DNA of 57,621 nucleotides from Rhodothermia bacterium (GTDB lineage: Bacteria > Bacteroidota > Rhodothermia > Rhodothermales > JAAAOL01). The first letter of the stretch is position 1; each line of letters opens with the position of its first letter. The translations under genes were made by a program, and so were the position numbers. Shown here piece by piece: positions 3,835 to 54,356 of this stretch. The notes beneath the pieces are model-generated. The model was given only the letters and a program-made list of their open reading frames with translations, searched no databases and had not been told where the DNA came from. Location: contig JAUIDY010000026.1 of the NCBI GenBank assembly GCA_030428385.1, positions 1 through 57,621 on the forward strand, read 5' to 3'.

Positions 3835-4095
3835 TAACACTTCCTCGACGCACCGCTAAGGCAACAGCCTCAGCCAAAGGAGTGATTTGTTCTTTCAGGG
3901 ACGAAAGAACCAAAGTCCCGCCGCCTCCGAAACCCGCGAACCCCGATCCGACGCCACCTACGCCGTACCCAACGGGCACAAACCACGGCACCACCTGAAA
4001 TGCCCCTGTGATGCCCATTGGCTAAACGCACCGGGGCTCTACCTACCGCGCCCATGCCTCGGAGGCGGCACCGGTGCTCGGTCCCAGCGCTGCGC
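3835..4095 (+). repeat. alpha repeat, copy 1
   Basis: This is an intergenic repeat of about 255 bp. It begins with CACTTCCT and contains the near-palindrome GTTCTTTCAGGGACGAAAGA (3889 onward). It then runs through a CCTACGCCGTACCCAACGGG stretch, GCCCATTGGCTAAACGCACC and CCCATGCCTCGGAGGCGGCA, and ends near GCTGCGC. Copies 2 and 3 at 4388 and 53636 share these blocks. Short frames exist across it on both strands but are not conserved as proteins. Confidence 0.9.
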
Positions 4096-4115
4096 TATTC
4101 TACGCTAATCTATAG

Positions 4116-4350
4116 GCGTTTAAAAAAGCACGGCTGTACGCACAAGGCACCCCCCGTCCCATCCCGGGCTTGTGCTGGCGGAAGAAGCCCGCGCGTTTAG
4201 CCGGTGGGCGAACAGCACCACGCCTATCGCATTGCAAAGCGAACACCGCCCAGCGGGTACGGGCCGCGCGGTGGACGGGCTTCGTGGGATTGGATGGGAC
4301 AAGGCGTTTGGTCCTTTCCGCTGTGAAAGGACGAAAAAACCAGCAAGACC
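4116..4350 (+). repeat. beta repeat, copy 1
   Basis: This 235 bp repeat has the recognisable blocks GTCCCATCCCGGGCTTGTGC, GCGCGTTTAGCCGGTGGGCG, CGCCCAGCGGGTACGG, GGGATTGGATGGGACAAGGC and the terminal palindrome GGTCCTTTCCGCTGTGAAAG. A second full copy lies at 53905 and an inverted, truncated copy lies at 38882-39040 at the edge of the broken gspF gene. The GGCTAAACGC block in alpha recurs inverted in beta (GCGTTTAGCC), so an alpha-beta pair can fold back on itself. Confidence 0.9.
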
Positions 4351-4387
4351 GCCGGTTGGCAAAATCCTTCTTAACAAGCACCCACAT

Positions 4388-4641
4388 TGCACTTCCTCAC
4401 TGCCTCGCCAAGGCAACGGCTTCTGCCAAAGGAATGAGTTGTTCTTTCAAGGACGAAAGAACCAAAGTCCTGCCGCCTCCGAAACGCACGAACCCCGATC
4501 CGGCCCCACCTACGCCGTACCCAACGGGCACAAACGCAGCGACACCTCACCCGCCTCGGTGATGCCCATTGGCTAAACGCACCGGGGCTCTACCTACCGC
4601 GCCCATGCCTCGGAGGCGGCACCGGTGCCCGATTCCAGCGC
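4388..4641 (+). repeat. alpha repeat, copy 2
   Basis: This is the second alpha copy, following beta copy 1 after a short spacer. It carries TTCTTTCAAGGACGAAAGAA, a perfectly nested palindrome, and then the same GGGCACAAACG, GCCCATTGGCTAAACGCACC and GGAGGCGGCACCGG blocks as copy 1. Divergence from copy 1 is concentrated between the blocks, as expected if the stems rather than a protein are conserved. Confidence 0.9.
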
Positions 4642-9393: not shown

Positions 9394-9513
9394 GGGAAGG
9401 GGGAAGCGCCAATAGGGAAGCGGGATGTCTGCGGGCGTTTTACCAGCGTGGTTGTGCTGATGGGAAGCGGAATCAGATAACAGCCCCAAGACGTACGCAG
9501 TGGTCCTTTTTAT

Positions 9514-9620
9514 GGTCATCACGAAGCTCTGCAGGAGTTGTGGTGATCTCACCCCGTCCGACGTAGCATTTCCCAGTGGGATGAGATCGCCACGTCGCGA
9601 ATGCTACTCGCGATGACGAG
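9514..9620. repeat. GTCATC palindrome, copy P1
   Basis: This is a long imperfect palindrome. It starts GTCATCACGAAGC, has GTGGTGATCTCACCCCG and the complementary GGGATGAGATCGCCACG in the middle, and ends CTCGCGATGACGA. Copies P2 and P3 have the same outer and inner blocks. P1 and P2 also share the flanking ACGTACGCA block. It occupies most of the 316 bp gap between rsmI and the lipoprotein gene; the rest of that gap shows nothing recognisable. Confidence 0.85.
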
Positions 9621-10168: not shown

Positions 10169-10229
10169 CGCAGCACCTCCGTGTAGAATGGTCAGACAAC
10201 AGCAAAACGTACGCACATCGCCTTTGTTA

Positions 10230-10338
10230 TCGTCATCACGAGGCTCCGAAGAAGCCGTGGTGATCTCACCCCGACAGGAAGAAGCACCACAGACGGGGTG
10301 AGATCGCCACGTCGCCACAGGCTCCTCGCGATGACGAT
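10230..10338. repeat. GTCATC palindrome, copy P2
   Basis: This copy starts CGTCATCACGAGGCTCC, contains GTGGTGATCTCACCCCGACA and its complement GGGGTGAGATCGCCACG, and ends CTCCTCGCGATGACGA. It lies in the divergent gap between two lipoprotein genes and must be close to both promoters. It shares an ACGTACGCA block upstream with P1, so the duplicated segment is longer than the palindrome. Confidence 0.87.
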
Positions 10339-22767: not shown

Positions 22768-22781
22768 TCGTTGCGCGTTCC

Positions 22782-22889
22782 CGTCATCGCGAGGATCCAA
22801 CGGCGACGTGGCAATCTCACCCCGACAGGAAATAGCACCTCGACCGGGCTGAGATCACCACAGGATCTACGATCCTTCGTGATGACGAG
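22782..22889. repeat. GTCATC palindrome, copy P3
   Basis: This copy starts CGTCATCGCGAGGATCC, has GTGGCAATCTCACCCCGACA, then CGGGCTGAGATCACCACAGG, and ends GATCCTTCGTGATGACGA. Outer arms are complementary. It is located 15 bp after the uvrA2 stop codon and may terminate that operon. Confidence 0.85.
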
Positions 22890-37286: not shown

Positions 37287-37850
37287 TTATTCCTCCGGGA
37301 AAAGGAAGACCGTGTCGACAACGTGTACGACGCCGTTTGACGCATCCACGGTGCCCAGGATTTTTGCGCCATTGACGTAAAGGTCACCGTCGCGCTCTTC
37401 CACGTCCACATATTGACCCGTAGCGAGATAAATCTTAACGCCGGGCTTTAGCAAATCCCCTTTAAAGGTGCCCGGCGAGGCATGCGAGGTGATAATTTTC
37501 GCGAGCTTGTTCTTGTTTTCGGGCTTCAGCAGTTCCTCCACGGTGCCCGGAGGAAGCGCGTCGAACGCCGCGTTGGTGGGAGCAAAAACCGTGAGCGGCC
37601 CCGGGTTAACGAGCACGTTTTCGAGTTCGGCGGCTCCCACGGCAGCTGCCAACGTGGTATGATCGGGCGAACTAGCTGCAATCTGCAGGATGTTTTTTTC
37701 CGACTCATTATCGACGACGCCTGCTTGACCGTGGTTGGCGGCAAACACGGTAGGGCTGTCAGCAGCCTCCGGGGCACCTGTTTGGCAAGCGAAAAAGAGG
37801 GGCGCGATAAAAAGGACCAGGAAGGAGAGGGGTGTAAGGTGTTTCATCAT
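37287..37850 (-). CDS. fasciclin-domain lipoprotein
   Basis: This lipoprotein has 187 residues. The signal ends with lipobox LFFAC. One FAS1 domain carries the H1 and H2 blocks: ENVLVNPGPLTVFAPTNAAF, FDALPPGTVEELLKPENK, LAKIITSHASPG, and the terminal GTVDASNGVVHVVDTVFLF. FAS1 domains mediate adhesion or matrix binding. ATG at 37850 (MMKHLTPLSF) is preferred over a start 16 codons upstream as it begins the signal peptide. It is monocistronic. Confidence 0.9.
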   Translation of the reverse strand: MMKHLTPLSFLVLFIAPLFFACQTGAPEAADSPTVFAANHGQAGVVDNESEKNILQIAASSPDHTTLAAAVGAAELENVLVNPGPLTVFAPTNAAFDALPPGTVEELLKPENKNKLAKIITSHASPGTFKGDLLKPGVKIYLATGQYVDVEERDGDLYVNGAKILGTVDASNGVVHVVDTVFLFPEE

Positions 37851-38050
37851 GACCATCTGCGGATAGGTGACAAGTAGCAGGCAGGTATCTACATCCAACG
37901 TAGGTTGGAGCCACCCCTTTGTCTGTAGGCTTCTCCCTTACACCCCTACAAAAACCCACCCTCAAACACTTGAATTTGCAGGATCTCCACACATAATTTT
38001 GTGGTCAACCATTCCCTGTTTGTTAAGCAGAATACCCCTTCTGGCCACAA

Positions 38051-38881
38051 CTACCCCACAAAGTTGATCAACTCGAACATCGGCAGGTACATCGCTACGA
38101 GGATGCCGCCGAGCAGCAGCCCGATGCCGATGATGAGCACCGGTTCGATGATGGAGGTAAGGGCTTCGAGGAAGGTATCTACCTCCTGCTCGTAATACGT
38201 GGCGGCGTGCATCAGCATGTCGTCCAGTTCAGCGGTTTGCTCACCCACAGCGATCATCTGCGCCACCATTTCCGGGAAGATGTTGGCCTGCATCAGCGGG
38301 GCGTAGAGGGTGCTGCCGCGTTTCACCCGGCCCAGCACGTTTTCCAGCACCGCCTGCACGTGTTTGTTACCCGCCGACTGCGCGATGATGTCGAGCGCGT
38401 CGGTGAGCGCCACGCCACTTCCCACCAGTGTGCCCAACGTCCGGCAGAACCGTGCCACGAGGCTTTTGGTAATTACGCGCCCGAAGAGCGGCAGCCCCAG
38501 CTTCGCCCGGTCCCACAGCAGCCGCCCCTTCGTCGAGCGCAGCACCGCACCCACGGTCAGCACAAGTACGCCCAGCCCAACCAGCGCTTTGAGTGCGTGG
38601 TCTGTCAGTAGGGCGCTGAGAGCGAGGATGACCTTCGTGGGCGTAGGAAGTTGTTGCCCGAAGTCGGCGTACATCTCGGCAAAGGTCGGCACGATGACGG
38701 TGAGGAAAAAGACCGTGGCAGCAATGGCAACGATGAGGATGAGCGCGGGATAAAACATCGCAAACGTCACCTTGCGCTTCAGCGCCGACGTTTTCTCGAA
38801 GTGGGTGGCGAGGCGCAGCAAGACGCTGTCGAGGATCCCGGCGACTTCGCCGATGCGGGTCAGGTGGACGTACAGTTCCAG
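38051..38881 (-). pseudogene. gspF: gspF/pilC-type secretion membrane protein, 5'-truncated by a repeat
   Basis: Read from 38881 the frame gives about 276 residues. It begins ELYVHLTRIGEVAGILDSVL, runs through LRLATHFEKTSALKRKV and AMFYPALILIVAIAATVFF, then VARFCRTLGTLVGSGVALTD, ending LLLGGILVAMYLPMFELINF. This is the C-terminal two thirds of GspF/PilC, including the second conserved cytoplasmic repeat and last helices. A TGA follows immediately upstream (38882-38884), and from there the DNA is a beta repeat. A normal GspF is about 400 residues, so about 130 residues and the start are missing. A TTG at 38821 could still be used, but a functional inner-membrane platform is unlikely. No other type II secretion/pilus genes are in the window. 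Confidence 0.85.
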
Positions 38882-39040
38882 TCAAATCCAATCCCACGAA
38901 GCCTGCCCAGCGCACGAGTCCGTACCCGCTGGGCGATGATCCTAGTGCCATCTGACACATGTCGTGTTGTTCGCCCACCGGCTAAACGCACGGGCTTCTC
39001 CCCCCAGCACAGGCCGGGGATGGGACGCTGGTGCTCCATC
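38882..39040 (-). repeat. beta repeat, copy 3 (inverted, truncated)
   Basis: On the minus strand this tract reads ACCAGCGTCCCATCCCCGGC, then GCGTTTAGCCGGTGGGCGAA, CGCCCAGCGGGTACGG and CTTCGTGGGATTGGAT, exactly the order of blocks in beta copies 1 and 2. It stops at GGATTGGATT, where the gspF remnant begins. The last about 50 bp of a full beta (GACAAGGCG and the palindrome) are missing, so the junction arose within the repeat. Confidence 0.85.
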
Positions 39041-39264
39041 CAAACCATGTTTGCCATTTCTTCCCGCTCCTCTTGTAGCGTGGCGCTGTCACTATACGTC
39101 TGAGCTTCGAAAATAATTTGGTGATCGTTTACGAGACAATAAACACTACCTGTATTGGGTGATCGAGGCCAACGACCTGCCATCACTTACGATGCACTCG
39201 CACACTAATAGCTTCCCTGAACATATTCAGGAAGAGCCCGGGAGCAACTGCTAAACGAAACCTA
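39041..39264. other. non-coding remnant between beta copy 3 and a lipoprotein gene
   Basis: No confident gene is seen. A minus-strand frame (39186 down into the repeat) has a plausible 50-residue stretch (CLVNDHQIIFEAQTYSDSAT) before it runs into the repeat, so it may be the end of another broken gene. CTTCCTGAATATGTTCAGGGAAG (about 39210-39232, minus strand, given as its arms CTTCCTGA/TTCAGGGAAG) forms a hairpin after the following gene and could be its terminator. Confidence 0.4.
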
Positions 39265-40063: not shown

Positions 40064-40157
40064 TGGAGAATATGATGAGGCAAAGATTCTTTATGAACAA
40101 GCCCTCGCTATTTATCAGGAAAAACTCGGTAGCGACCATCCTTATTTTGCAACCATT

Positions 40158-40730
40158 TTGATGAATCTGGGCAACAATTATGGCAAACAAGGACAGTATG
40201 CGGAGGCTGAATCCAGGATTCGACAAGCTTTAGCTGTATTCCAGAATTCGTATGGGAACGAACATCCACGAACAGCCAATGCCTTAACAAATCTAGGAAA
40301 GGTTCTCTATTATCAGCAAGACTATTCAACTGCACTCAGCCTATTAGAAGAAGCCCACACCGTGCACCGTGAGCTCTTAGGCGACACGCACATTAATGTA
40401 GCAATTTCCGCACATTGGGTAGGAAAAGTGTATGACGCTCAAGGAATGCATGACAAAGCATTGGATGCGCTAACATTCGCCTATGATGTTTTTGAAACCA
40501 CTTATACCTCAGAGAACCGCCGATTAGCCGATGTCCAAATCGCCCTGGGCACGTGCCTGACCCACCAGCAACGCTACGACGAGGCTGAGCCGCTCTTGCA
40601 TCAAGGATATGAAACGCTGGCGGCCGCCCCCTACGCCCAGCCCGACCAAAAGCAGGAAGCCCGCGAGGCGCTCGTGGCACTCTATACCGCGTGGGGCAAA
40701 TCCGACCAAGCCGCCACCTATCAGAACTAG
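40158..40730 (+). CDS. TPR protein, 5'-truncated
   Basis: From ATG 40158 this is a 190-residue chain of kinesin-light-chain-like TPRs (MNLGNNYGKQGQYAEAESRI, LTNLGKVLYYQQDYSTALSL, HWVGKVYDAQGMHDKALDAL, ALGTCLTHQQRYDEAEPLLH). The same frame continues upstream with in-phase TPR sequence (GEYDEAKILYEQALAIYQEK, from about 40062) back to a TAG near 40029, with no start codon in that stretch. The repeat array is therefore cut in its 5' part and the gene is probably a remnant. The 3' half regains the local GC content. It is convergent with the permease gene, 13 bp apart. Confidence 0.7.
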   Translation: MMNLGNNYGKQGQYAEAESRIRQALAVFQNSYGNEHPRTANALTNLGKVLYYQQDYSTALSLLEEAHTVHRELLGDTHINVAISAHWVGKVYDAQGMHDKALDALTFAYDVFETTYTSENRRLADVQIALGTCLTHQQRYDEAEPLLHQGYETLAAAPYAQPDQKQEAREALVALYTAWGKSDQAATYQN

Positions 40731-53635: not shown

Positions 53636-53895
53636 TGCACTTCCTAGATGCTGTGCTGAGGCAACGGCTTTTGCCAAAGGAGTGGTTTGTTCTTTCAGGG
53701 ACGAAAGAACCAAAGTCCTGCCGCCTCCGAAACACACGAACCCCGACCCAACCCCACCTACGCCGTATCCAACGGGCACAAAACACGGCACCATCTGAAA
53801 CGCCAAGCCGATGCCCATTGGCTAAACGCACCGGGGTTCCACCCCTCGCGCCCATGCCACGGAGGCGGCATCGGTGCTCGGTTCCACCGCTGCGC
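53636..53895 (+). repeat. alpha repeat, copy 3
   Basis: This copy begins CACTTCCTAGATG and has GTTCTTTCAGGGACGAAAGA, CACCTACGCCGTATCCAACG, GCCCATTGGCTAAACGCACC and CGGAGGCGGCATCGGTGCTC, with the same spacing as copies 1 and 2 near position 4000. It is about 50 kb away from those copies. Confidence 0.9.
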
Positions 53896-53904
53896 CAACC
53901 GGCA

Positions 53905-54138
53905 AGCGTATGAAAAAGCATGGTTGTCAGCATTGGGCACCAGCGTCCCATCCACGGTCTGTGCTGCCGGAAGAAGTCCGCGCGTTTAGCCGGTGGGCAA
54001 GCAGCACCACGCCTACCGGTTAGCGAAGTGGGTGCCGCCCAGCGGGTACGGACCGTGCGGTAGACGGGCTTCGCGGGATTGGATGGGACAAGGCGTTTGG
54101 TCCTTTCCGCTGTGAAAGGACGAAAAACCAACAAGCAC
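53905..54138 (+). repeat. beta repeat, copy 2
   Basis: A full-length beta: GTATGAAAAAGCATGGTTGT, ACCAGCGTCCCATCCACGG, GCGCGTTTAGCCGGTGGGCA, CGCCCAGCGGGTACGGACC, GGGATTGGATGGGACAAGGC, GGTCCTTTCCGCTGTGAAAG. It follows alpha copy 3 without a gap, about 220 bp upstream of uvrA. The 180-residue minus-strand frame across alpha and beta is not conserved between copies. Confidence 0.9.
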
Positions 54139-54356
54139 CGAGAATGGAAAAGTGTTTCTTAAAGGGCACAACAGAGATGGCTCCAGTGCTTGGTTTCATC
54201 ACCTTCCCATCCTGAAAGTACCGTTGCTCCGACAAGCCAACCTGCTTTTATCCACAAACCCATTTTTAACACAACCACTCCGAAACGAACATCGGGCTTT
54301 GTGGTTGCAGACATGTTCTACACATCTTTTTAAATCGGCCTGCCCACTCCCGCCTC

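Follow-up and report, generated by a model that had tools for sequence, protein, structure and literature searches.

Mosaic palindromic repeats such as BIME and REP/REPIN occur in bacteria, MITE-like elements also being comparable, and hairpins favour illegitimate deletions. At the locus described here a repeat of this kind adjoins a gene for a GspF/PilC platform protein (PF00482; TIGR02120, NF052606, NF052607). With this family it shares an entire T2SSF domain and half of a second one. In contrast to other members, it lacks the first third, and the curated NCBIfam cut-offs were missed both by it and by a full-length relative (genome G009). The repeat resembles BIME, REP/REPIN and MITE-like elements in its dispersed modules, their varied combinations and imperfect palindromes with complementary ends, but its modules (258, 145 and 88 bp) are far bigger. 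The analysed window of 57,621 nucleotides is the entire contig C205 of the draft genome G000 of a Rhodothermia bacterium (6.19 Mb, 245 contigs, 97.65% complete); its features are compiled in Table 1. We consider it likely that the gspF/pilC gene of a type II secretion/type IV pilus-like cluster was cut here by an illegitimate deletion and that what remains is a pseudogene.

Table 1. Positions of the gspF/pilC remnant, the repeat copies and adjacent features in the window
Feature	Position	Strand	Remarks
Fullest repeat copy in the window	3838-4641	+	alpha-delta-beta-gamma-alpha
Fasciclin-domain gene	37287-37898	-	downstream of gspF
gspF/pilC remnant	38051-38881	-	276 open codons plus stop (38051-38053); second half of T2SSF domain 1, all of T2SSF domain 2, C-terminus
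Complete T2SSF domain	38081-38449		PF00482
Partial T2SSF domain	38687-38881		PF00482, model positions 61-125 only
gspF/repeat joint	38876-38886		uncertain by about 10 bp
In-frame TGA	38884-38882	-	codon just before the remnant, within the opening bases of the repeat
Beta module at gspF	38881-39027	-	imperfect palindrome, gamma missing on the gspF side
Further repeat sequence	39028-39098	-	common to copies on C232 (to 39087) and C169 (to 39098)
AT-rich segment	39051-40550		mostly 40-48% GC; window mean, 61%
Lipoprotein-like protein, 202 aa	39265-39873	-	open frame, no Pfam/NCBIfam family
TPR gene	40068-40730	+	no usual start codon ahead of the TPR region
Third repeat copy in the window	53638-54162	+	alpha-beta-gamma

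The gspF/pilC remnant and its counterparts in relatives

The open frame matched PF00482 with 145.2 bits (cut-off, 25.2; E = 9.5e-31), a value that excludes chance as the source of its gspF identity. Instead of the two complete T2SSF domains of the family it contains a complete and a partial one, and for this reason we regard the gene as a remnant and not as an intact GspF/PilC member. Neither the remnant (242.5 bits) nor the full-length G009 protein (332.5 bits) reached the TIGR02120 equivalog cut-off of 424 bits. The remnant was 42-51% identical to five relatives, the values for the two proteins of the order Rhodothermales (G009 and G020) being 50-51%. It begins at about residue 98 of the G020 protein (371 aa) and about residue 129 of the G009 protein (402 aa); relative to the relatives, about 97-128 N-terminal residues are absent. 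The earliest usual in-frame start codon is a TTG at 38821. GC3 lies mostly at 0.76-0.92, and since it is high and the frame is free of stops, the remnant is either young or kept.

At all 87 comparable loci the frame extends at least 96 codons further upstream (median, 132). Loci were counted as comparable if the match started within query residues 1-10, which left out one (L010 of genome G018) of the 88 examined; some genomes are represented twice among these (e.g., L006/L113 and L093/L129). The first-pass annotation had interpreted the gene as truncated, a view that relatives with the same short form would contradict. The only short form is that of G018, which is different and shorter, while the rest are full length. 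It consists of the C-terminal 150 codons only (L010:1501-1953), is likewise open and has AT-rich DNA ahead of it. As the beta repeat was not found in G018, the order shows two or more cuts of gspF, one of them without a repeat of the beta type.

The claim that the missing N-terminal part does not lie on the far side of the repeat was borne out. A tblastn search of the window with the N-terminal parts of four relatives gave no convincing match (best E = 0.006, unrelated), and the N-terminal 127 aa of one relative retrieved from the whole genome only the remnant itself and matches at chance level. A five-row N-terminal profile detected the second domain of the remnant (E = 4e-9), a PilC on contig C244 (E = 0.012) and others with E values of 0.05 or above in the same genome; no contig end yielded an N-terminal part in the profile search. 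A weak match on C107 (E = 0.0118) contained internal stops, lay opposite a 345-aa frame and was rejected as a chance similarity.

The repeat family and the joint with gspF

Four modules, alpha (258 bp), delta (61 bp), beta (145 bp) and gamma (88 bp), make up the repeat family in several combinations. Within the own genome the beta query gave 17 matches and a fuller query 30 matches, the latter on 20 contigs (own places counted). The 14 longest other copies were 77-87% identical to the copy at gspF over about 140-210 bp, which excludes chance similarity. Beta is a long imperfect palindrome, or hairpin, with 37 consensus pairs over 15 copies, one of these pairs showing a change on both sides; because the paired columns are mostly invariant, covariation adds little. 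DNA folding of three single copies resulted in z-scores of -1.47, -3.22 and -2.36. Thus the family consists of palindromic units in a mosaic, as do REP, BIME and REPIN. Beta was confined to G000 among 60 genomes searched (59 others negative), a scan of the window against Rfam gave no family at the gathering score, and a conserved beta 23-mer was absent from collections of genome contigs and viral contigs, which perhaps do not include the records nearest to the window. As far as these searches and literature listings with the openings of abstracts reach, the family is undescribed. Another family of dispersed repeats (D7), with a unit of about 85 bp, has three copies in the window (9509-9593, 10226-10310 and 22777-22861).

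The modules were mapped at 23 loci and in the window, C169:24657-24786 being left out. In each of the 14 other full-length betas, among which the partial ones of C133 and C227:13421 are not counted, gamma follows directly after beta. The copy at gspF is the sole full-length beta without gamma, whose exact place is occupied by gspF, and it is inverted relative to the betas at 4157-4301 and 53946-54090. The annotation of this copy as truncated and inverted was therefore correct, and so was the statement that the GspF/PilC frame stops where the repeat starts. Conservation with the relatives sets in at the Leu codon at 38875, and the two codons ahead of it are without a match; the alignment of the repeat with other copies begins at 38886 at the latest. 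On the joint side the repeat copy deviates from the consensus in two bases, followed by three matching ones. Because of these departures a few bases may belong to gspF or to the repeat, and the joint is placed to within about 10 bp. A 108-aa frame across the repeat (38860-39186) had no family match and was taken as spurious.

Beyond the repeat lies the longest of three AT-rich runs in the window, which ends inside the TPR gene and may be imported DNA. Near 40548 the GC3 of this gene climbs from 0.3-0.5 to about 0.75-0.8; the gene, which also lacks its 5' part, is possibly a chimera. The lipoprotein-like frame had no relative in viral contigs or plasmids.

The secretion/pilus cluster

In G009 the genes are arranged in the order L-M-C-pilin-peptidase-X-I-J-F, with a PilX-like X and a J with an N_methyl motif (letters L, M, C, X, I, J and F assigned by position and Pfam match). 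Peptidase, X, I, J and F are thus kept together in this relative. G012 and G020 have ATPase and F on a single contig at a distance of about 9 kb; in G009 this distance is about 28 kb, with the ATPase upstream. In G000 gspF does not stand beside the ATPase, secretin, pilin and prepilin peptidase genes. These are located on contig C101, together with PilN-, PilO- and weakly PilP-like genes, all of them open, and the remnant on C205. The front half on C101 stops 59 bp short of a converging gene, and no copy of the repeat was matched on this contig.

The first-pass annotation had restricted the loss to the start of gspF. This start is gone, yet the loss seems to extend beyond it, to at least X; a profile search for this gene in G000 was negative (best E, 0.405). 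No J-like pilin was detected there either, the single N_methyl match above the cut-off being the C101 pilin. The J proteins of the relatives scored 21.2 and 28.6 bits against an N_methyl cut-off of 21.2, so that a score at or above the limit of detection is expected for a similar J. No Pfam family matched I. Since conservation of I and J among the relatives is low (about 31%), their absence is only weakly tested. Given a draft of this fragmentation and completeness, the absent rear genes could also sit in an assembly gap.

Across the order, 8 of 114 genomes, the own one among them, had a gspF match at E <= 1e-35. A strong gspE match (E <= 1e-110) was found in four (own genome, G009, G012 and G020), all of them gspF-positive, and this co-occurrence supports the former membership of the remnant in the C101 cluster. 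G001, from the same family and 83% complete, had no match to gspF or gspE at these thresholds. The state before the event was seen in no close relative, G001 being the sole family member compared.

Origin of the truncated gene

As gamma is missing at the joint, the end of the deletion coincides with the foot of the beta hairpin. We favour an illegitimate deletion because it explains the cut in the gene and the cut in the repeat together. The joint has gspF on one side, at about residue 97-128 of the relatives, and on its other side the foot of the beta palindrome, where gamma is gone; the presumed deletion probably removed gamma, the start of gspF and some or all of the rear genes (X, I and J). 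Since the front half is on another contig, the deletion alone does not suffice: at least one additional, separate break would have parted the genes from ATPase to peptidase from the rear half.

The first-pass annotation had suggested an insertion followed by a deletion or by recombination between repeats. Its deletion part agrees with the missing N-terminal region, the full-length relatives and the loss of gamma. Its other part, that the repeat inserted into gspF as a mobile element and that homologous recombination between copies then swapped the flank bearing the start, might draw on the many diverged copies in the genome and on the opposite orientation of the two others in the window. It is nevertheless unlikely, as a simple insertion would keep the end of the repeat intact and recombination inside the repeat would keep gamma beside gspF, the one place where it is missing. 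Moreover, no other copy compared has a stretch of more than 36 identical bases in common with that at gspF, the N-terminal part was found nowhere else in the assembly, and C101, which bears the front half, is devoid of a matched copy. The same limit of 36 bases speaks against an assembly error that wrongly connected the two flanks, gspF and the far side, via the repeat. Several contigs do end within the repeat (e.g., C68, C193, C35 and C166), indicating that it troubled the assembly, but a misjoin via shared sequence would be expected inside the repeat and not at the end of homology, gspF would adjoin this beta regardless, and the profile search detected the N-terminal part at no contig end. 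We hold such an error to be most improbable.

It is very unlikely, too, that a C-terminal GspF/PilC fragment is still produced from the short gene and has a use. The open frame and the open remnant of 150 codons in G018 would fit such a use, but the longer form is encoded at every comparable locus, the first T2SSF domain has lost one half, a stop lies directly at the joint and the first usual start is that internal TTG. The remnant left by the presumed illegitimate deletion is probably a pseudogene. A secretion or pilus function has likely been lost, and unless another PilC, such as the second one on C244, takes over, the machine is probably without its inner-membrane platform protein.

Implications

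The event looks like routine gene decay in a cluster with patchy retention and not like a new kind of system. That the repeats act as breakage points, with the foot of the beta hairpin as a preferred deletion end at which operons are repeatedly cut, here the secretion cluster, is an idea that we regard as quite doubtful. In annotations this gene is best labelled a remnant, and its presence should not be read as evidence of a type II-like system. The analysis also draws attention to a family of mosaic palindromic repeats found in this genome only, and the locus illustrates how a secretion/pilus cluster with patchy retention is lost in the Rhodothermales, with one end of the deletion marked by a repeat module.
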